From: a virus
Strand: one strand, 5' to 3'
DNA length: 48,180 nucleotides
Virus record (IMG/VR): IMGVR_UViG_3300041405_000291
Span: 1-48,180 of that record
The notes below the pieces were generated by a model. That model saw only the letters and a list, made by a program, of their open reading frames with translations, was not told the DNA's origin and ran no database searches. The position numbers and the translations under genes are program-made. Of this stretch, positions 7,556 through 48,026 are shown in pieces (position 1 is the first letter of the stretch; the number at the start of each line of letters is the position of its first letter).

Positions 7556-8227
7556 TCAAAGCGCGACCTCAAACGCTCGGCGAATCGTTTCCTGGCACAC
7601 GCTTAGATAAGGCTTGCTATGGTCAAGGCAGGCATGGCCAAGAATGGTCTGCACCGTTTCAACGTCACCAGTTGCCGCCAATACCTTTGCCGCCAGGGAG
7701 CGCCTGCCGCTGTGCGACGCCCCCTGCTTGATACCTGCCTGCCGGTAGAGCCTGGTGATGGTCTGTTGCAGCGCATCACAAGCCCGGTACACCTCCGGCC
7801 CACTGTCCAGCTCCCGATGCTTGAATGCCAGTTCAAAAGCCTGCCCCTTGTGCGTCATGACCAGCTTTGAACCTGGGCGCAGACCTCGATACTCATCGGC
7901 ACCTGAAAGCCCCCAGCAGCGCCGGGTACGCACATCAAACCAAGCATCAAGCGCAGCAAGGCATCTGGTATGGGTCAGGTACACATTACGCGGTCGGCAG
8001 CCCTTAGTGATGTCTGCGCGCAAATACACCTCGGGCTTGATAGCTCCGCTCGGGTACAGCACGTCGGCCACCTCCAGCAATGCCAGCTCGGTGACGCGGA
8101 TACCGGTCGTGTGAGTAAGCCAAAGCAACATCACATCGCGCTCTGGTAGTCGACCAGTCACGGATGCAACGCGAACAAGGTGTTTGAATTGTCCAGGGCG
8201 AAGCGAGGTGGCACGGCGGGGAGTCAT
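7556..8227 (-). CDS. Tyrosine recombinase, catalytic domain only
   Basis: 223 aa. Catalytic residues visible: Arg in TTGIRVTEL, His-x-x-Arg in HSGRR, the second His in ILGH, and the Tyr nucleophile in HSKPYLSV. No N-terminal core-binding domain is present, so it is shorter than usual integrases (300-420 aa). It is distinct from the main integrase at 42773-44032 and reads into the small-gene array. It could act in excision, in resolution of phage dimers, or in shuffling the array; the last idea rests only on position and the repeated spacers. No clear start alternatives. Confidence 0.8.
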   Translation of the reverse strand: MTPRRATSLRPGQFKHLVRVASVTGRLPERDVMLLWLTHTTGIRVTELALLEVADVLYPSGAIKPEVYLRADITKGCRPRNVYLTHTRCLAALDAWFDVRTRRCWGLSGADEYRGLRPGSKLVMTHKGQAFELAFKHRELDSGPEVYRACDALQQTITRLYRQAGIKQGASHSGRRSLAAKVLAATGDVETVQTILGHACLDHSKPYLSVCQETIRRAFEVAL

Positions 8228-8347
8228 ACGGGCTCTCTGTCAGGATTGCGCGGGAATCGCGATGAATCTGTAGAGAGTGGTCAGCGGACCTCCTGAATAG
8301 CTTACAGGCACGCCCACTGTAATGTTCACGGAAAATGCCAAGGATGC

Positions 8348-9142
8348 TCAGAACAGACCGCCCAGCATTGCCGGCTCCCAGTTCATGATCACCAGCTCGC
8401 CGCTCACCTCGGCTTTGCCTTGCCGCTGGTTGGTATTGGAGTAACGGATGTCCAAGGTCTCAAAATGAAAGCCCTCGAAAACCCGGCGGATATCCGGATG
8501 ATCGTTGATGCTAACCATCACTTTGCCTTTGCAGCGGCGCATGAAGTCGGCCATCCGTTCGTAGTTCTCGAACGGAAAGTCCACGCCATAACCGGCTGTC
8601 TGCCAGTAAGGCGGATCCATGTAATGGAAGGTGTGGGCACGGTCGTAGCGTTCAGCGCATTCAAGCCAGGGGAGGTTTTCGACGTAGGTGCCGGACAGGC
8701 GTTGCCACGCGGCCGAGAGGTTTTCCTCGATACGCAGCAGGTTAATGGCCGGTGCAGTGGTCGCCGTGCCGAACGTCTGACCCGACACCTTGCCGGCAAA
8801 GGCATGGTGCTGCAGGTAGAAGAATCGGGCGGCGCGCTGGATGTCGGTAAGGGTTTCGGGGCGGGTCATCTTCTGCCATTCGAACACCTGCCGCGAGCTG
8901 AGCGCCCATTTGAATTGGCGCACAAATTCTTCGAGGTGGTTCTGCACGACGCGGTAAAGCGTGACCAGGTCGCCGTTGATGTCATTGAGGACTTCGACCG
9001 GCGATGGCTGGGGCTTCATGAAGTAGAGCGCGGCACCGCCGGCAAAGACTTCAACGTAGCATTCGTGTGGCGGAAAAAGCGGAATGAGGCGGTCGGCCAG
9101 GCGGCGTTTGCCGCCCATCCAAGGGATGATGGGTGTAGACAT
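8348..9142 (-). CDS. D12-class N6-adenine DNA methyltransferase
   Basis: 264 aa. MGGKRR near the N-terminus, AdoMet-binding motif VFAGGAALYF and catalytic motif DPPYW identify a Dam-type enzyme; GATC specificity is typical of the class but not certain. ATG at 9142 chosen (AAGG upstream); the upstream TTG is unlikely. It probably protects or marks phage DNA. A LexA box lies 18 bases upstream, suggesting SOS control. Confidence 0.88.
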   Translation of the reverse strand: MSTPIIPWMGGKRRLADRLIPLFPPHECYVEVFAGGAALYFMKPQPSPVEVLNDINGDLVTLYRVVQNHLEEFVRQFKWALSSRQVFEWQKMTRPETLTDIQRAARFFYLQHHAFAGKVSGQTFGTATTAPAINLLRIEENLSAAWQRLSGTYVENLPWLECAERYDRAHTFHYMDPPYWQTAGYGVDFPFENYERMADFMRRCKGKVMVSINDHPDIRRVFEGFHFETLDIRYSNTNQRQGKAEVSGELVIMNWEPAMLGGLF

Positions 9143-9159
9143 AAAAAGCAAGACCTTTA

Positions 9160-36676: not shown

Positions 36677-36937
36677 CTACGCTGCAGCTTTTTGTGGAGC
36701 CGAAGCGTTCAACAGCCAAGCCGCTTGGAATGCGTTGCCTTTCTGCTTCGCGGCAGTCGCTAACAGCTCGGCGTACTTGGTTTCACCTGTGTAGTCCGTT
36801 CGCGGCAGGCATGCCGCCTGACGCCATTTGTTCAGTGCCTGGTAGCTTCTATTGCATACCTTCGCAGCGGCCCCGATGCCGCCTACGGCTTCAAAAGCAA
36901 ACGCAATTGCGCTCGGAAAATCTGCGGGGTCCAACAT
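36677..36937 (-). CDS. Cro-like repressor
   Basis: 86 aa; GGAGG 6 nt before ATG 36937. FAFEAVGGIGAAAKVCNRSY QALNKWRQAACLP is a YdaS/Cro-like helix-turn-helix. Divergent from cI across shared operators, as in lambda. Ala/Gln-rich tail. Confidence 0.8.
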   Translation of the reverse strand: MLDPADFPSAIAFAFEAVGGIGAAAKVCNRSYQALNKWRQAACLPRTDYTGETKYAELLATAAKQKGNAFQAAWLLNASAPQKAAA

Positions 36938-36951
36938 GACAACCTCCATTT

Positions 36952-37025
36952 ATCAACTTGCGGTTGATGTTATAGCTCAACTGACTATTGCGCAACCTTT
37001 ATGAGACTCTCAACTCATGGTTGAT
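36952..37025. promoter_or_regulatory. cI-cro operator region with three 17-bp dyads
   Basis: ATCAACTTGCGGTTGAT (36952-36968) and CTCAACTCATGGTTGAT (37009-37025, over the cI start codon) share the dyad TCAAC-N5-GTTGA; a half-conserved site lies at 36976-36992. The leftward cro promoter has -10 TATAAC (36974-36969). Overlap of a site with the cI ATG fits autoregulation and a leaderless or very short-leader cI mRNA. Confidence 0.65.
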
Positions 37026-37748
37026 AAAAATTCTCTCCGCGCAGCTTTCAGCGAGCGCCTACACGAAGCTCTCAACGATGCCGGCGTACGTGCCCGTGGT
37101 CGTGGAGTGGATATTCATCGTCAGTTGAAAAGCGTAGGGGTTGATAAAACGACCCAGGCCATCAGCAAATGGCTGAATGGCGAAGCGATGGCTGAGGCGG
37201 ATAGCATGTCGGCCCTCTGCTCATGGCTTGGTGTCAGGCGGGAATGGCTTGAGTATGGGGTTCTCCCGAAAGAGCAGACTGGCCATAGCAACGTTCGCGT
37301 TTTAGCCCCTAGTGACTTGAGCAACGTCAGTGAAATCAATCAGCGCTTTGGCAAAGTCCCATTGATCTCTTGGGTTCAGGCCGGGGCTTGGTGCGAGGCG
37401 ATCTCAAACATAGAGAATTATGATAGTGACTCTTGGTTGTCGTGCCCGGTTCCGATTAGCAACCATGGCTATGCCTTGAAGGTTCTCGGTGACTCAATGA
37501 CTAATCCAGGACCTGGGCGCAGCTACCCAACAGGATGTATTATTTTTGTCGATCCTGAAGCTGAAACAAAGACAGGGGATCGAGTAATTGCCAGAGTGCC
37601 CCGCACAAATGAAGCAACCTTCAAAATATTAGTAGAGGACGCTGGCCGACAATTTCTAAGACCCATCAATCCGCAATATCCAATCATTGACATTACGGAG
37701 GAGACACATATTTGCGGCAAAGTCGTTGGCTCATTCATCCCAGAATAA
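37017..37748 (+). CDS. CI-like repressor (S24 self-cleaving)
   Basis: 243 aa. N-terminal helix-turn-helix (RQLKSVGVDKTTQAISKWLN region), linker, and S24/LexA-type domain with catalytic Ser in LGDSMTNPG and Lys region in VIARVPRTNEATFKIL. Maintains lysogeny and should be cleaved on RecA activation. Sites for it are proposed at 36952-37025 and 39830-39867. Converges with the Septu genes. Confidence 0.88.
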   Translation: MVDKNSLRAAFSERLHEALNDAGVRARGRGVDIHRQLKSVGVDKTTQAISKWLNGEAMAEADSMSALCSWLGVRREWLEYGVLPKEQTGHSNVRVLAPSDLSNVSEINQRFGKVPLISWVQAGAWCEAISNIENYDSDSWLSCPVPISNHGYALKVLGDSMTNPGPGRSYPTGCIIFVDPEAETKTGDRVIARVPRTNEATFKILVEDAGRQFLRPINPQYPIIDITEETHICGKVVGSFIPE

Positions 37749-37765: not shown

Positions 37766-38509
37766 TCACATCATATTTATCATTATTTTAGCTTCGCGAT
37801 ATATTTTGGAGCGCCCTAAAAACCATGAGGCGAAGCCGGAATACTTTTCACTTTCTCGTGCAAGCATCTCAATCCTATCGATCGCCTCACGTATAGAGCG
37901 CAGTCTGTTAGCTTTTTTCTTCAATGTATTTACGCTGTGATAATTCGCGACAGCTTGTTTTAGGGATAGTTCGAAATCGTGGAGACTCACATGAATTTTC
38001 GAACGAGGCTCCCATAACCGCAGAGTATTGAGCCCGCAAACCTCTATAGTTAGCTCGGCAACATCATACGTTGGCCCCGGCCAGCTCTTTACATTCAACC
38101 CTTCGTAATAAAAATAATGAGCAGGATCTAAATCATAAGGATTGACTATAGGCTCTTTACCTGTATCGTGATCGTCTTTATTCCCATTGCAACGCCTACA
38201 CGCTGGCAATAAATTTAACCATTCAAAGGTTTGGTCTGGATAAATTGATTTTGGTTTAAAATGTTCAACCTCAACATTCCCACCCTCTGACGGAATGCAT
38301 TCGCAGAACGTACATTTCCCATTGGAAGAACGAGTAAGTTCTGACTTGACATCCTTGTGCCGGTAAGGAGCTATTAACAGCTCCTTTTCTTTTTCCGGAA
38401 TATTCTTATAAGAACCATGAACATCAATCGCCTCTTTCAGCTTCCGAGTCAACTCGACTTTATTATTTTTCAAATATTCTGGCTCAGTTCCTCTATTAAG
38501 CTTAATCAT
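37766..38509 (-). CDS. ptuB: Septu HNH endonuclease PtuB
   Basis: 247 aa. HNH fold with zinc knuckles: CTFC (Cys66, Cys69), EHFKPKS (Glu82-His83), WLNLLPACRRCNGNK (Asn99, Cys104, Cys107, Lys111). This is the PtuB/TIGR02646-type arrangement. ATG at 38509 overlaps the ptuA stop, so the two are translationally coupled. With PtuA it forms the Septu defence system, an ATPase-nuclease complex that attacks phage nucleic acids on infection. No reverse transcriptase is nearby, so it is Septu rather than retron Ec78. Confidence 0.85.
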   Translation of the reverse strand: MIKLNRGTEPEYLKNNKVELTRKLKEAIDVHGSYKNIPEKEKELLIAPYRHKDVKSELTRSSNGKCTFCECIPSEGGNVEVEHFKPKSIYPDQTFEWLNLLPACRRCNGNKDDHDTGKEPIVNPYDLDPAHYFYYEGLNVKSWPGPTYDVAELTIEVCGLNTLRLWEPRSKIHVSLHDFELSLKQAVANYHSVNTLKKKANRLRSIREAIDRIEMLARESEKYSGFASWFLGRSKIYREAKIMINMM

Positions 38510-39740
38510 CCTTAAGAGCCACCAGAGATGCAAGTTTAGCCTTTAGCACGATCACTATAGTATCGCTTGGATGTGCTACTCTCTCTAGGCTAGCGATAGC
38601 CTCCTCCAACGCTCCCAGGTCTCTCTCTTCTGCCTTAGAAATAGCCGCACCAATTAGACGTTGATAATCCTTATTTTCTAAGCTTTTAACATCCATAACA
38701 TCGGTCAGAATCTGATCAGTTGACCATCCTGAATATAATTGATCAGATGACGTTATTTCGCCGCCCACTGCGTTTGCAGGCATGATTAGTACTTCATTCT
38801 CTTTAGCAGACGCAAGCAAGTGGGGCGAATGCGTTGTAACAATAAATTGCAGCTTAGGAAAAAGTTTTAACAACCCATCGCGCAACGTAAATTGCCACTC
38901 AGGATGAAGATGCAGATCCAGCTCATCGATCAATACCGTTCCACTTGCAGTAGCCGCCAAACGGTTTGACTGACTAGTTGTTTCCACCCATTCAAATATC
39001 ATCACAATTATGGTAAAAACCGCTTGAAACCCAGAAGAAAGTTCTTCTAAATAACACCGTCTCCCATAGATAGAAAATATTGGCTCTAGATCTCGACCGA
39101 TCTCAATAAACTTAAAATCGCTACCATCAGGACCAATGTATTGAAGCGCATCTGTAAACCTAGAAAAATTTTCTCGCTCTACAGCCGCCCAATCCTTGTC
39201 AATAATAAAATACCTATTAACGAGCCATTGCTTAATATCTCCTGCCCATTCGCCATGCAAAGACTTTACGCTGTTTTTCCGGTAGGTCTTAATAGCATCT
39301 TCAACAGGTAACTCCCTTGCCACACCCTCTATCAACTTATACCTAATACTCCGATTTGCACCAATAAATAAAGGCGAAAGTGACTCGGCGCGATCCTCGT
39401 ACGTTTTAATGTACTGCCGCCCCTCTTCAACGGAAACCCCTTGATTTCCTATTTTAAAACTGCCTTTTCGATATCCGCCACTTAAAGAGTTCTTTCCCAA
39501 ACCGATTCTTAATTTGTCGTCCCCATCCACCATATCTATCCACATGACAGATTGTTCACTAACTGTCGAATATCCGACGCCAGACACGTCAAAACAGTGA
39601 GCTATGCACACCAAGACTGAAGTTTTTCCACAACCATTAGGTCCAGCGATGAAATTAAAGCTCGGGCCAAACTCAATATTAAGAGTTTCAAACTTCCTGA
39701 CATTTTCTACGTGAAGCTTTTCTAAATATCTGACTGACAT
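38502..39740 (-). CDS. ptuA: Septu ATPase PtuA
   Basis: 412 aa SMC/ABC-like ATPase: Walker A AGPNGCGKTS (32-41), ABC-type signature ELSSGFQ (233-239), Walker B VLIDELDLHLHP (269-280), and switch His in TTHSPH. AAGGA lies before ATG 39740. AT-richer than the phage backbone, consistent with acquisition as a cassette. It lies between cI and the early promoter, divergent from the latter. Confidence 0.88.
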   Translation of the reverse strand: MSVRYLEKLHVENVRKFETLNIEFGPSFNFIAGPNGCGKTSVLVCIAHCFDVSGVGYSTVSEQSVMWIDMVDGDDKLRIGLGKNSLSGGYRKGSFKIGNQGVSVEEGRQYIKTYEDRAESLSPLFIGANRSIRYKLIEGVARELPVEDAIKTYRKNSVKSLHGEWAGDIKQWLVNRYFIIDKDWAAVERENFSRFTDALQYIGPDGSDFKFIEIGRDLEPIFSIYGRRCYLEELSSGFQAVFTIIVMIFEWVETTSQSNRLAATASGTVLIDELDLHLHPEWQFTLRDGLLKLFPKLQFIVTTHSPHLLASAKENEVLIMPANAVGGEITSSDQLYSGWSTDQILTDVMDVKSLENKDYQRLIGAAISKAEERDLGALEEAIASLERVAHPSDTIVIVLKAKLASLVALKDD

Positions 39741-39829
39741 TGCTGTTCCTTGCAAGCTGGATGCATCGATAGCCAATAATGATTGTTCACAAGGCAGAAA
39801 GCCACTGCCATAAGGAGCCCAACAGAAAC

Positions 39830-39870
39830 ATCAACCAGCAGTTGACAGTTATCAATTTTCGGTTGATATT
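39830..39870 (+). promoter_or_regulatory. CI-controlled rightward early promoter
   Basis: -35 TTGACA (39842-39847), 17-bp spacer, -10 GATATT (39865-39870). Two dyads of the CI operator type overlap it: ATCAACCAGCAGTTGAC (39830-39846) and ATCAATTTTCGGTTGAT (39851-39867), centres 21 bp apart on one face of the helix. Drives the operon 39901-44032. Confidence 0.75.
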
Positions 39871-39900: not shown

Positions 39901-40077
39901 ATGAATATCAAGACATCAGTGCATGCACATCCAGCAGCAGTAGACCCCCGGGTAATTTTTGAGATTCGCCGTCGAGCCCGCGAATGCGGCTGCACGTTTG
40001 TTGCAACCAAACGGAAGATGACAGCAGGCACCACTCCTGCCCCAGTCAATCCGAACGGCGGAGGGCACGCAGCATGA
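39901..40077 (+). CDS. Hypothetical protein, 58 aa
   Basis: First gene behind the early promoter. MNIKTSVHAHPAAVDPRVIF, then basic EIRRRARECGCTFVATKRKM. Ends by ATGA overlap with the next gene, so coupled. No family recognised. Confidence 0.6.
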   Translation: MNIKTSVHAHPAAVDPRVIFEIRRRARECGCTFVATKRKMTAGTTPAPVNPNGGGHAA

Positions 40078-40664
40078 TCAAGTACAAAATCGACAACCGC
40101 ACCCTGCAGCTGCTCAATGCTCAGGTCAACTTGACCGAGACTTTCAACCACGTCCTACGGACCGCGCCTAGGCGCGAGTGCTTGGCGTTTCGCCTCAAGG
40201 TTGAACGTGGCATCACGGAAAGCACCTTCGTCGTGGAGCTGGGCAGCGAGCGCCACACGCTGACCCTGCCGAACGAAAAGAAGATGCATCTAAAGCTGGC
40301 GGACTTCATCGAAGAGATCGCCAACGGCCCGTTCGATGCGAGCAATACCAGCGACCTGCTGCACCGTCCCCACGCCAGCCGCGAATACGGCCGCTTTGAG
40401 GTATCGGATAAGCAGCGGGTGTTCGAGCTGGTACGCACCGGCGGCGTACTGAGCCTCGACATGGGCTTCGAATACCCACTCCAGGTTGCGCTGCACCGCA
40501 CTCAATCACGCTCAGGCGTCACCACCATCCTGAGCATCGGTAACAAAAGCCCGCACACCCGGTGCTTCACCGTGTACGGCAGCGATGCAGATATCTACGT
40601 CAAGGTAAGCGAGTCCATCAATCATCTTGCTGCTGCGGCCACCCCAGCCGCGCACGCGGCATGA
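40074..40664 (+). CDS. Hypothetical early protein, 196 aa
   Basis: ATG at 40074 overlaps the preceding stop. MIKYKIDNRTLQLLNAQVNL; mixed alpha/beta; ends in an Ala-rich tail (AAAATPAAHAA). Found in an operon of early functions. Family not recognised. Confidence 0.65.
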   Translation: MIKYKIDNRTLQLLNAQVNLTETFNHVLRTAPRRECLAFRLKVERGITESTFVVELGSERHTLTLPNEKKMHLKLADFIEEIANGPFDASNTSDLLHRPHASREYGRFEVSDKQRVFELVRTGGVLSLDMGFEYPLQVALHRTQSRSGVTTILSIGNKSPHTRCFTVYGSDADIYVKVSESINHLAAAATPAAHAA

Positions 40665-42806: not shown

Positions 42807-44032
42807 AGGCAGAGCTGGCCAAACACAAAGGGATTGAGATACACGGCGGAAGCATTCGCGTCGTATTCATGTGGCGGCGAATTCGCTGCCGCGAAACCCT
42901 TGGCTTGCCCGTGACCAAAGCCAACGTCAAGCATGCCGCCCTACTCAGGGCGGCAATTCTTCACGAGATCAAGACAGGGCATTTTGAGTACGGTCGCCAC
43001 TTCCCAAACTCAAAAAATGCGACGAACTACACGGCCGTAAAAGACGAGCGGATCGGGGCGCTGCTTGCGCGTTACAAACCGCTGAAGGCTGTCGACATCA
43101 CTCCAATGACCGAAGAAAAGTACGGCTATGCATTGGATATCTGCGCTGAATTGCTAGGCTCGGATCGCTTGGTGGGCATCCTGCTACCCGAAGATATCCA
43201 ACGACTGAGAACCCAATTGATCGCCACCAGGGCGCCGTCGACGGCGAACCATTACCTGGCGACTTTCGCCGGCTTCTTAGCGTGGTGTGAAGACAACAGA
43301 TATTGCCGTGAGGGGTTGGCGGCGGCCTGCGTCCGTTTCGCAATGATCGGACGCGAACCAGATCCTCTGACGAAAGCAGAGTTCGACCAGTTGATAAATA
43401 AGGGCTGTTTACACGTTCAGGATTCGGCTGCGATCACACTCGCCGTTTACACAGGACTTAGACCCGGAGAATTATGCGGGCTGGCGGTGGAGGATATTGA
43501 CCTGGCGTCCGGGCAGCTACACATTACCAGAGCGATCACTGCAGACGGCACCTTCAAAGTCCCCAAAACTGGTAAGCCCCGCACCGTATTTTTGATGCCA
43601 CCAGCCCTCGATGCTTGCAAAAGCCTTATCGGTCTCGTTGAAAACCATGAACCGAGGACTATCGAGATTTATATGAATCGGCATGAGAGCAGGCAGGAAA
43701 CGGTAACGCCATTGCTGTCTCCGACCACGCAGGCTCGAAAGAAAATCATCAATCACTGGTACGTCCCGACATCATGGAATACCAAATGGGCCGCCGTACA
43801 AAAACGCTCTGAGATACGCCCGCGCCGGCCCTATCAGACCAGACATACATATGCATGCTGGTGCCTGACTGCGCGTGGCAATTTGGCGTTCATTGCGAAA
43901 CAGATGGGACACAAAGACTTCACTATGCTAGTTGAGGTATATGCAAAATGGATGGATGACGAATCCCCTTCCGAGCTAAAAAATATATGGTCGGCACTGA
44001 CAAAACAGTTCAAGGCACCATCCCTTTATTAA
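42773..44032 (+). CDS. Phage integrase (tyrosine recombinase)
   Basis: 419 aa from GTG 42773. N-terminal arm-binding region, SAM-like core-binding domain, catalytic domain with Arg in YTGLRPGELCGL, His-x-x-Arg in QTRHTYACW, GH in QMGHKDF, and Tyr in VEVYAKWM. Full-length and intact. Lies ~1.4 kb from attR because the PIN gene intervenes. Its last 23 bp overlap that convergent gene. Confidence 0.92.
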   Translation: MGRERTAASGLEAELAKHKGIEIHGGSIRVVFMWRRIRCRETLGLPVTKANVKHAALLRAAILHEIKTGHFEYGRHFPNSKNATNYTAVKDERIGALLARYKPLKAVDITPMTEEKYGYALDICAELLGSDRLVGILLPEDIQRLRTQLIATRAPSTANHYLATFAGFLAWCEDNRYCREGLAAACVRFAMIGREPDPLTKAEFDQLINKGCLHVQDSAAITLAVYTGLRPGELCGLAVEDIDLASGQLHITRAITADGTFKVPKTGKPRTVFLMPPALDACKSLIGLVENHEPRTIEIYMNRHESRQETVTPLLSPTTQARKKIINHWYVPTSWNTKWAAVQKRSEIRPRRPYQTRHTYACWCLTARGNLAFIAKQMGHKDFTMLVEVYAKWMDDESPSELKNIWSALTKQFKAPSLY

Positions 44033-45263
44033 AACCCTCATTTATCATCTTTATAGAGTCCGCCGCTGATCGAGTTAAGCGTTCGCGGCGTACTCTCTCA
44101 AGCTCAACCTCCACCATTTCACGCATTGAATCCATACTTCGAATCGCGTCAACACAACGCTTATAAGATTCCTCTTCAGAATCAATATTGAGCGCGATCA
44201 GGCCTGCACGAATACTTGCCAGAGACTGCAATTCCTTTTTCATCTCAAGCAATGATAAAACAAGCGCTTCCTCCCTCTCCCTGAGGCTACTATCAGTATC
44301 CTTTACCCAACCCAAAGTCTTATCAAAAAACCATTTACCGGGAAAGCTCGGACAATCTGATTTTATCGCATAGAGCATATTTTCTTGATCATCCACGCGA
44401 ATATCACGAATCTCTTTAACGGCTTCCTCAGAGTCATCCTGGTTTAGGTATTCGCTTGCCCTTTCTAGAAACCTATCGGGAGAGTACATATAAAAAGATG
44501 AACCAACGACAGATAAAAACTCCTCTTTTAGCTTCGGCTGTGGCCCAAGAGTCTTACCCTGAAATGTATACCACCAATCTTCCTTTGCATCACCCGTCAC
44601 AAAGATCACCGGCTTTTGGTCAGCTTTTGCTTTATCGAGAATTTGTAGCCAGACTATATAGTCGCCATAAGGCCTACACCTTTCATCAAAAATTATTGAA
44701 TCAGAGGCTTTTTTCACATCACAAAAACCCGGTGGAATTTTTTGCTCATATCGCTCCTGACCATCCTTTAGAATCCGCTCTAACTGAGCGCGCTCAAAAG
44801 CCTGACCAACTTTCCCATCAAACAATACCCCTAACTTATCCTTGATCTCATCCGAATTTATTCGCTTGTCATGAACACGTTTATTCTCATTTAACTCAGA
44901 TGAGAGCCGAGCGAACAAAGCTGAACTTTCAGTGAGAGTGGCCTCACTAACAAAAGGATGCTGATTGTGACTCTCTAAACTTTTCTTTAGAGCTTCAACC
45001 TTCTTGACCGCATCATCATATATCTTTCCCTGCTCACCAATCACGGCTAGTCGGTTATTTAGGTATTCGAACGCTACTTGATGAGGTATCCAAAGTCGCT
45101 CACCCAACGCCTCGAATACATCAAGCAGCTTCGCACAAGTGAGATCAGAGTATCGATAAAGATTGAGCAGAACATTAGCATCCAAGACAAAAATACAGTC
45201 GCCCCACATTTGATCGATATCATCGATTTGAGTCGAAAAAAAACCTGGGAATTCCGTTTTCAT
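44010..45263 (-). CDS. PIN-like domain protein (defence candidate)
   Basis: 417 aa. N-terminal PIN-like fold: IFVLDANVLLNLYRYSD (Asp28 as metal ligand), YLNNRLAVIGEQGKIYDDA, then DYIVWLQILDKAKADQKPVI FVTGDAKEDWW, the DUF4935/PIN_8-like pattern of putative RNases. The C-terminal third is coiled coil. ATG 45263 (GGAG upstream) preferred to 45281. AT-rich, placed between integrase and attR, a usual spot for acquired cargo. No antitoxin partner seen. Confidence 0.75.
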   Translation of the reverse strand: MKTEFPGFFSTQIDDIDQMWGDCIFVLDANVLLNLYRYSDLTCAKLLDVFEALGERLWIPHQVAFEYLNNRLAVIGEQGKIYDDAVKKVEALKKSLESHNQHPFVSEATLTESSALFARLSSELNENKRVHDKRINSDEIKDKLGVLFDGKVGQAFERAQLERILKDGQERYEQKIPPGFCDVKKASDSIIFDERCRPYGDYIVWLQILDKAKADQKPVIFVTGDAKEDWWYTFQGKTLGPQPKLKEEFLSVVGSSFYMYSPDRFLERASEYLNQDDSEEAVKEIRDIRVDDQENMLYAIKSDCPSFPGKWFFDKTLGWVKDTDSSLREREEALVLSLLEMKKELQSLASIRAGLIALNIDSEEESYKRCVDAIRSMDSMREMVEVELERVRRERLTRSAADSIKMINEGFNKGMVP

Positions 45264-45443
45264 TGTTTGCTCCGGCCTCATAGTGGTGGCAGGGTGGTGG
45301 CGTCACACTCAACATAGTCCCGACTGGCATTCCCCACCACCCCCTATGTTAACCTCGTTCTATTCGGTGGAATTTTGGCAAGCAACACGCGCCACCGCCC
45401 CATTTTTGCCCCACACCTCTACCAGAATCACTCTAAGACATTG
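45264..45443. promoter_or_regulatory. Phage-supplied mutS upstream region
   Basis: 180 bases between the divergent PIN gene and the mutS ATG. Holds GGGTGGTGG (45292-45300) with its complement CCACCACCC (45334-45342), a weak -10-like TATGTT (45345-45350) without a good -35, the 17-bp terminal repeat, and only AAGA as ribosome site. mutS must be expressed from here or by read-through. Confidence 0.45.
45397..45413. repeat. 17-bp terminal repeat, right copy
   Basis: GCCCCATTTTTGCCCCA, identical to 1363-1379. Lies 30 bases before the phage-borne mutS start codon, so integrase binding and mutS leader overlap. Confidence 0.5.
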
Positions 45444-48026
45444 ATGAATAAAGCAATTTCAGATTTATCCAGCCACACTCCGATGATGCAGCAATACTGG
45501 CGCCTGAAGAATCAGCATCCGGACCAGCTGATGTTTTATCGCATGGGCGATTTCTACGAAATCTTCTACGAAGATGCGAAGAAAGCCGCCAAGTTGCTGG
45601 ACATCACCCTGACCGCGCGCGGGCAGTCGGCGGGACAGGCGATTCCGATGTGTGGGATTCCTTACCACGCGGCGGAAGGTTACCTGGCGAAACTGGTCAA
45701 GCTCGGCGAGTCGGTGGTGATTTGCGAGCAGGTCGGCGACCCGGCCACCAGCAAAGGCCCGGTGGAGCGTCAAGTCGTACGGATCATCACGCCGGGGACG
45801 GTCAGTGACGAAGCGTTACTCGATGAACGCCGCGATAACCTGATCGCAGCTGTATTGGGCGATGAGCGCCTGTTCGGTCTGGCGGTGCTGGACATCACCA
45901 GCGGCAACTTCACCGTGCTAGAGATCAAAGGCTGGGAAAACCTGCTGGCAGAACTGGAGCGGGTGAATCCGGTTGAGCTGCTGATTCCGGATGACTGGCC
46001 TAAAGACCTGCCGGCGGAGAAACGCCGTGGCGTACGTCGTCGTGCGCCGTGGGACTTTGAGCGTGACTCGGCGTTGAAAAGTCTCTGCCAGCAGTTTTCC
46101 ACTCAAGACCTGAAAGGCTTCGGCTGCGAAAACCTGACCCTGGCCATCGGCGCTGCCGGCTGCCTGCTGGCCTACGCCAAAGAGACCCAGCGCACCGCCC
46201 TGCCCCACTTGCGCAGCCTGCGTCACGAACGTCTCGATGACACCGTGGTGCTCGACGGCGCCAGCCGGCGCAATCTGGAACTCGACACCAATCTGGCCGG
46301 TGGCCGCGACAACACGCTGCAATCGGTGGTCGATCGTTGCCAGACCGCCATGGGCAGCCGTTTGCTGACTCGTTGGCTGAACCGGCCGTTGCGCGACCTC
46401 ACAGTGCTGCTGGCACGCCAGACGTCGATTCGCTGCCTGCTCGACGGCTACCGTTTTGAAAAGCTGCAACCGCAGCTCAAGGAAATCGGCGACATCGAGC
46501 GGATCCTGGCGCGAATCGGCCTGCGTAATGCGCGACCACGTGACCTTGCGCGTCTGCGTGACGCTCTCGGCGCACTGCCCGAACTGCAAGTGGCGATGAC
46601 CGATCTGGAAGCGCCGCACCTGCAGCATCTGGCGGCCACCACCAGCACCTATCCAGAACTGGCGGCGCTGCTGGCAAAAGCCATTATCGACAACCCGCCT
46701 GCGGTGATCCGCGACGGCGGCGTGCTGAAAACCGGTTACGACAGTGAACTCGACGAACTGCAATCGCTGAGCGAAAACGCCGGCCAGTTCCTCATCGATC
46801 TGGAAGCCCGGGAGAAGGCCCGTACTGGTCTGGCCAATCTAAAAGTTGGCTACAACCGTATCCACGGCTACTTCATCGAACTGCCGAGCAAGCAGGCTGA
46901 ATCGGCGCCGGCCGACTACATCCGCCGGCAGACGCTCAAAGGCGCCGAGCGTTTCATCACGCCCGAGCTGAAAGAATTCGAAGACAAGGCGCTGTCGGCC
47001 AAGAGTCGCGCGCTGGCTCGGGAAAAAATGCTTTATGAGGCGCTGCTCGAAGACTTGATCAGCCAGTTGCCGCCGTTGCAGGACACCGCCGGCGCCTTGG
47101 CCGAGCTGGATGTGCTGAGCAACCTTGCCGAGCGTGCCTTGAACCTCGACCTTAACTGCCCGCGTTTCGTCAGCGAGCCGTGCATGCGCATCACCCAGGG
47201 TCGTCACCCGGTAGTCGAGCAAGTGCTGACCACGCCGTTCGTGGCCAACGACCTGAGCCTGGACGACAATACGCGCATGCTGGTCATCACCGGCCCGAAC
47301 ATGGGCGGTAAATCCACTTACATGCGGCAAACCGCTTTGATCGTGTTGCTGGCGCATATCGGAAGTTTCGTGCCGGCCGCCAGTTGCGAGTTATCGCTGG
47401 TCGACCGCATCTTCACCCGTATCGGCTCAAGCGATGATCTGGCCGGCGGTCGCTCGACCTTCATGGTCGAGATGAGCGAAACCGCCAACATCCTGCATAA
47501 CGCGACCGAGCGCAGTCTGGTGCTGATGGACGAAGTCGGGCGCGGTACCAGCACCTTTGACGGTCTGTCGCTGGCGTGGGCGGCGGCCGAGCGCTTGGCT
47601 CATCTGCGCGCCTACACCCTGTTCGCCACGCACTATTTTGAACTGACCGTGCTGCCCGAAGCCGAACCTCTTGTAGCTAACGTGCACCTCAACGCTACCG
47701 AGCACAACGAACGGATCGTGTTCCTGCACCACGTTCTGCCTGGGCCGGCCAGCCAGAGCTACGGCTTGGCAGTCGCGCAACTGGCCGGCGTGCCGAGCGA
47801 AGTAATCTTGCGCGCGCGCGAGCATCTGAGCCGTCTGGAAGACACCGCCCTGCCGCACGAGGCGCCGAAACCGGCAGCGAAGGGCAAGCCGTCGACACCG
47901 CAGCAAAGCGATATGTTCGCCTCGCTGCCACATCCGGTGCTCGATGAGTTGGCCAAGGTCGATCTGGACGACATGACGCCACGTCGAGCGCTGGAAATGC
48001 TCTATGCACTGAAGAACCGGATATAA
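45444..48026 (+). CDS. mutS: DNA mismatch repair protein MutS
   Basis: 860 aa, normal length. Mismatch-binding motif GDFYEIF (Phe37, Glu39), clamp and lever domains, Walker [10 protein letters not shown], Walker [17 protein letters not shown], and C-terminal [16 protein letters not shown]. The ATG at 45444 matches the native N-terminus; an upstream in-frame TTG at 45375 lies in phage DNA and is not needed. The first 41 bases are phage-borne and were swapped in by integration; the native 5' end remains at 1200. Confidence 0.95.
45473..45484. other. attR core (CCACACTCCGAT)
   Basis: Identical 12 bases to attL at 1229-1240, lying in codons 10-14 of intact mutS. Upstream is phage, downstream is host mutS. 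Confidence 0.85.

Follow-up and report, generated by a model that had tools for sequence, protein, structure and literature searches.

A Septu gene pair between cI and the early left promoter of a temperate prophage, in what is very likely an exchangeable defence slot

Introduction

Is the gene pair that lies between the repressor gene and the early left promoter of this prophage the chance occupant of a general cargo site or the present content of a defence slot, and when would it be expressed? The DNA analysed here (the window, 48,180 bases of an IMG/VR virus record) carries a contractile-tailed temperate prophage, with genes for terminase, portal, major head protein, tape measure and baseplate and a P2-type tail gene. 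A preliminary description recognised the pair as the Septu genes ptuA and ptuB and likened their place to that of rexAB beside lambda cI, from which expression in the lysogen and exclusion of other phages were proposed. From the analysis of the pair, its operators and the same interval in related prophages, it is concluded with high confidence that, in a family of temperate contractile-tailed Pseudomonas prophages, this part of the immunity region serves as an exchangeable slot for defence genes, which here holds a complete Septu system free of any retron.

The prophage and its immunity region

The genes run in the order primase, CII-like and cro-like (all on the minus strand), cI (plus), ptuB and ptuA (minus), followed by the early left genes, a KilAC-like gene and the integrase (plus). 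The placing of ptuAB between cI and the early promoter was therefore correct, with cI on one side and pL and its operators on the other (Table 1). The product of the cro-like gene has a weak match to the carph-isopro domain, under the family cut-off.

Table 1. Features of the immunity region, in window coordinates
Feature	Position	Strand	Remarks
cro-like gene	36677..36949	-	Divergent from cI; conserved in relatives; name cro given by position
Right operator next to cro	36951..36969	.	TATCAAC-n5-GTTGAT, nearly invariant in 99 loci
Right operator across cI start codon	37008..37026	.	TATCAAC-n5-GTTGAT motif
cI, S24-type repressor	37017..37748	+	Peptidase_S24, E 2e-24
ptuB, Septu HNH nuclease	37766..38509	-	247 aa from MIKL start; PADLOC PDLC00336 (PtuB1), E 1.3e-102
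ptuA, Septu ATPase	38502..39740	-	412 aa; PADLOC PDLC00279 (PtuA1), E 1.5e-177, full length
Candidate ptuA promoter, leftward	39827..39855	-	TTGATA-17-GATGTT, weak; read from leader alignment, within the operators
Left operator OL2, cargo side	39829..39847	.	19.7 bits (right-operator matrix)
pL, early promoter	39842..39870	+	TTGACA-17-GATATT, strong; both left operators overlap it
Left operator OL1	39850..39868	.	21.2 bits (right-operator matrix)
First early left operon gene, right slot border	39901..40077	+	58 aa; conserved in 74 viral and 30 genome/phage-record loci
Second early left gene	40074..40664	+	196 aa; PHROG 15582, unknown function

The host of the window is very probably a Pseudomonas, since the closest relatives of the immunity region lie in Pseudomonas species, with a cI identity of 97 % in P. 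folii. Viral contigs gave 80 relatives of cI and Pseudomonas genomes 30, and the prophage family is present in 22 of 398 sampled Pseudomonas species genomes (about 5 %). The phage collection held no annotated isolate of the family, its sole close match being an unannotated 7.5 kb scaffold.

The window terminates in a mutS gene, apparently part of the host flank. This gene and a PIN-domain gene adjoin the integrase (44010-48026), in a probable attachment region and host flank, and mutS as a neighbour suggests the integration site. Distant from the main integrase, the 7556-9151 region holds a second tyrosine-recombinase-like gene (7556-8227; Phage_integrase, E 3e-10) and a D12 adenine methyltransferase gene (8348-9151).

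Identification of the Septu pair

Both genes match the Septu profiles of PADLOC (Table 1), in agreement with the earlier identification. PtuA also matches Pfam AAA_15/AAA_21 and the solved PtuA structure PDB 8ee4 (E 3e-19), and the PDB matches of PtuB are weak ones to retron PtuB (best 7e-6). The key motifs said to be present in both proteins were all found: PtuA is an SMC/ABC-like ATPase with the Walker A motif GPNGCGKTS, an LSSG signature, the Walker B motif VLIDELDLHLHP and a TTHSP switch, and the adjoining ptuB encodes an HNH nuclease with CxxC and the HNH core VEH..W.N..C..CN. These motifs are invariant or nearly so in an alignment of eight homologous loci, two of which (L003 and L088) are both phage KS9.

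The ptuA gene starts at the ATG at 39740, which is preceded by a Shine-Dalgarno-like site. The ptuB open reading frame extends up to 38533; the start is most likely the ATG at 38509, with its conserved MIKL, rather than 38533. In one locus (L060:6758-7513) the tblastn match to PtuB seems to cross a TGA upstream of MIKL, in support of the shorter form. A start at 38509 gives an overlap of 8 bp with the end of ptuA. Compared with their homologues in Pseudomonas folii (L089), dN/dS is about 0.006/0.053 for ptuA (ratio about 0.11) and about 0.017/0.086 for ptuB (ratio about 0.20); these low ratios suggest purifying selection on the two genes.

Septu PtuAB (8ee4) and the PtuAB of retron I-A Ec78 consist, like the pair here, of a PtuA ATPase and a PtuB HNH protein. 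A retron-linked Septu (retron I-A, Ec78/Ec83) was rejected for this locus: the interval between cI and OL contains ptuA and ptuB only, with no retron reverse transcriptase, so that the cassette has two genes where Ec78 has a reverse transcriptase as well, and the Rfam search of the window gave no match, with no ncRNA beside ptuAB. The NCBIfam retron PtuA and PtuB models score far under their cut-offs (132 versus 500 bits and 57 versus 150 bits, respectively).

Cargo of the slot in related prophages

Relatives were picked by their cI and not by their cargo, so the cargo did not bias the sample; the exceptions are L002, picked by its PtuA, and L087, picked by DNA similarity. With the slot taken as the interval from the cI stop codon to the first early gene, the survey covered 108 slots (75, plus 30 mostly in named Pseudomonas genomes, plus 3), of which 97 are filled (93 distinct sequences) and 11 are empty, at 103-114 bp. 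In the filled slots, all 127 open reading frames kept (at least 80 aa) are on the minus strand, opposite to cI. The GC content is 0.41 in the slot versus 0.59 in the flanking backbone, and is lower in the slot in 96 of the 97.

The cargo of the viral loci forms 37 protein clusters, and viral and genome cargo together form 29 sets and one singleton (L099). A survey of this kind had been proposed in the preliminary description, with alternative defence genes in mind, and such genes do occur in the same slot. PADLOC profiles matched 18 of the 29 sets (60/93 loci): two kinds of Septu, Lamassu LmuABC, a CBASS cyclase with a 2TM effector, DRT5, PD-T4-10_B with PDC-S21, PDC-S20, PDC-S28, PDC-S49, an AbiC-like family, a NACHT protein, a SIR2 protein, an AAA pair and KAP, plus weaker ones. 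Strong matches include DRT5 (E 2e-204), LmuB (E 8e-152), the CBASS cyclase (E 3e-123) and PDC-S28 (1043 bits); several of the 18 are partial or weak, for example PDC-M34B, PDC-M36A, PDC-S31, PDC-S60 and a trypsin-like protein.

The other 11 sets (33/93 loci) have no PADLOC defence profile match. Among the 29 sets, that of L057 encodes a lipoprotein-like protein and a trypsin-like protease, and that of L012 a papain-like amidase. These observations would suit a general cargo (moron) site, not a defence slot, in which Septu lies by chance. It is nevertheless very improbable that the site is of this general kind, given that 18 of the 29 sets match defence profiles, many of them strongly, whereas PADLOC matched none of the six proteins tested from the backbone of this phage, and that no metabolic or virulence cargo was recognised in the slots. 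Conserved borders, many unrelated cargos, richness in defence genes and the existence of empty sites together give the site the properties of a defence hotspot.

Pairs of loci with a cI identity of at least 95 % carry the same cargo in 8 of 24 cases, and below 95 % the proportion is 3.5-4.2 % in every bin. Below this identity, cargo is thus nearly independent of cI relatedness, and the flat rate indicates that cargo is swapped faster than cI diverges. The slot extends from the cI stop codon, its left border, to OL/pL, its right border, which CI would control. On the defence-slot reading, whole cassettes would be swapped between phages through recombination in the conserved flanks, as suggested by the flat relation of cargo to cI, the low GC content and the sharp borders.

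Orientation of the cargo relative to cI

The analogy with rex holds for position and fails for wiring. Like lambda rexAB, ptuAB lie between cI and the left operator and promoter, but they are on the opposite strand to cI and point toward it, a fact absent from the preliminary description. Neither here nor in any of the 97 filled slots is the cargo on the same strand as cI and co-transcribed with it. The cI promoter and transcript therefore cannot express ptuAB and another promoter is needed, so that expression with cI in the manner of rex has to be abandoned.

At the convergent junction between cI and cargo, terminators were found in the cargo direction in 8 of 94 cases and in the cI direction in 3 of 94. 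With so few terminators, cargo transcripts may run antisense into cI; a stable lysogen would then have to tolerate such transcription.

Operators, promoters and the timing of expression

A matrix trained on the right-side palindromic sites only (the two between cro and cI, in 99 loci) found four strong sites over the 48 kb window, two of them being OL1 and OL2. The best score in the window outside these four is 8.6 bits, and shuffled 48 kb sequence gave no site above 12 bits. The best promoter is at an identical offset, that of pL, in 80 of 105 loci. By their motifs, the sites at 39829-39870 are the left operator and pL, and CI would be expected to bind there; the CI operators that had been supposed in the divergent region are thus located, as CI-type sites between ptuA and the first early gene. 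On the right side, the cI start codon is inside an operator, leaving little leader room, so that the cI mRNA may have no leader or almost none, like the transcript from lambda PRM.

Neither the scan nor the leader alignment revealed a conserved or good leftward promoter ahead of ptuA. The general promoter scan of the loci yielded no agreed leftward cargo promoter, the best candidates being scattered across loci, partly because OL2 has two registers, and a uniform leftward cargo promoter at OL was rejected. The candidate listed for ptuA in Table 1 is not the top scorer in that scan.

The reading that we consider the likelier is that ptuAB are on in the lysogen, either from a constitutive promoter of their own or with CI at OL1 aiding a leftward promoter, and shield the lysogen from other phages in the way known for rexAB and bstA. 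The position matches that of rexAB, and the repressor neighbours in known slots (rexAB, bstA, RexABpp) protect lysogens (PMC8585504, PMC12894663). OL1 adjoins the upstream end of the candidate leftward promoter, at about the place of an activator site, and some cargo families have their own good promoters immediately beyond OL2, for example TTGACA-16-TACATT in L013 and a strong TTGACA-15-TATATT in L086, L087 and L093. This expression in the lysogen is harder to reconcile with the opposed strands, which preclude a common transcript with cI, and with the lack of a good promoter seen ahead of ptuA in the window.

Alternatively, with pL and the leftward promoter both under the operators, ptuAB would be silent or weakly expressed in the lysogen and would be switched on together with the early genes upon infection or induction, to act against co-infecting phages. 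Such repression by CI is possible but on the unlikely side. The one candidate leftward promoter common to the Septu-bearing relatives is covered by OL1 and OL2, and in the alignment of the four Septu leaders conservation falls mainly on the operators. Moreover, the class of OL2 (near, far or absent) tracks the cargo family in a shuffle test that ignores phage relatedness (mutual information, p 0.0002, 5000 shuffles; p 0.03 for OL2 presence alone), as if the operator edge belonged to the cassette, and the association is consistent with an edge that may travel with it. However, all 11 empty slots have OL2, whereas 25 of the 88 distinct filled slots lack it or have a poor version, and it may serve pL only. 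Since the candidate ptuA promoter is within both operators, CI could equally shut ptuAB off or allow their expression.

A further proposal is that OL1 and OL2 govern two face-to-face promoters, pL and a leftward cargo promoter, that one CI would thereby time about 30 interchangeable systems, and that cargo transcription into cI would feed back on the lysogeny decision; as a whole, this is unlikely.

To return to the slot itself, the cassette, always oriented toward cI, would have to bring its own promoter near OL, and the most likely time of Septu action would be the lysogenic state or the early stage of an infection. The PtuA ATPase complex would sense infection and release PtuB, whose HNH nuclease activity would cut nucleic acid and abort the infection by the competitor phage, the gain to the prophage most likely being the exclusion of competitors. 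One characterised E. coli Septu cleaves host tRNA-Tyr (PMC13096335).

Comparison with known systems

Hotspots beside cI are known from K139-like Vibrio phages, in which defence genes lie between cI and int (Rousset 2022, PMC9122126), and, from Degnan 2007 as cited in PMC8585504, from lambdoid phages, in the form of the cI-n mosaic hotspot. The K139 site resembles this slot in lying on the cI side and the integrase side and in its varied defence systems, but its cargo is downstream of cI on the same strand, whereas here the cargo is convergent with cI and bordered by CI-type operators. Septu is named among the cargo of the two further hotspots in the same report (PMC9122126). Lambda, with its order cI-rexAB-OL/pL-N, shares exclusion genes and mosaic exchange with this slot; however, lambda rexAB, like BstA, run with cI and are taken to share its promoter, where all cargo here runs against it, and the phage families are unrelated, the present one having a contractile tail and a CP76-type CII.

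RexABpp of the P. putida prophage P1 (PMC12894663) is likewise a case of defence genes adjoining a CI-like repressor in a Pseudomonas prophage, but it sits within the repressor operon and belongs to another protein family. Burkholderia phage KS9 carries Septu genes (gp02/gp03), its PtuA being 52-53 % identical to that of the window; KS9 is an unrelated phage, and its Septu genes are beside the integrase and not cI.

What is new is therefore a further hotspot on the cI side, in a Pseudomonas prophage family, with cargo always convergent to cI and a border of CI-type operators. The open-access literature contained no report of this exact slot in Pseudomonas, which is weak evidence of absence. 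The slot is a defined and easily recognised address, from the cI stop codon to the TTGACA of pL, and its inverted cargo allows a direct test of whether prophage defences need the promoter of the repressor.

Uncharacterised and unusual cargos

The 11 cargo sets that PADLOC did not match are promising sources of new anti-phage systems. One recurrent family without PADLOC or Pfam match (L049:6715-7785, with L048, L071, L051, L100, L110 and L133) has N-terminal hydrophobic helices and a C-terminal domain with a conserved D..E.K pattern. In the predicted structure (pLDDT 63) the C-terminal domain is well predicted and has a weak likeness to the Card1/Can2 nucleases (best E 3e-4, low TM). This likeness and the conserved pattern suggest, as a lead, a membrane-anchored PD-(D/E)xK nuclease and a candidate new defence.

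A second family (L014:6759-8534, with L086, L087, L093 and L116) encodes a protein of about 590 aa without profile match, in which a strongly conserved DLQIDCGDKLLVVEIKG stretch looks like a PD-(D/E)xK nuclease core; the predicted structure of L014 is too poor for use (pLDDT 63, pTM 0.39). A HIT-domain protein with a small membrane protein, without defence profile match, occurs in three loci (L016:5653-6916, with L031 and L033). The papain-like amidase is the slot cargo of L012, and the lipoprotein-like protein and trypsin-like protease at L057:6814-8730 are an unusual pair for a phage.
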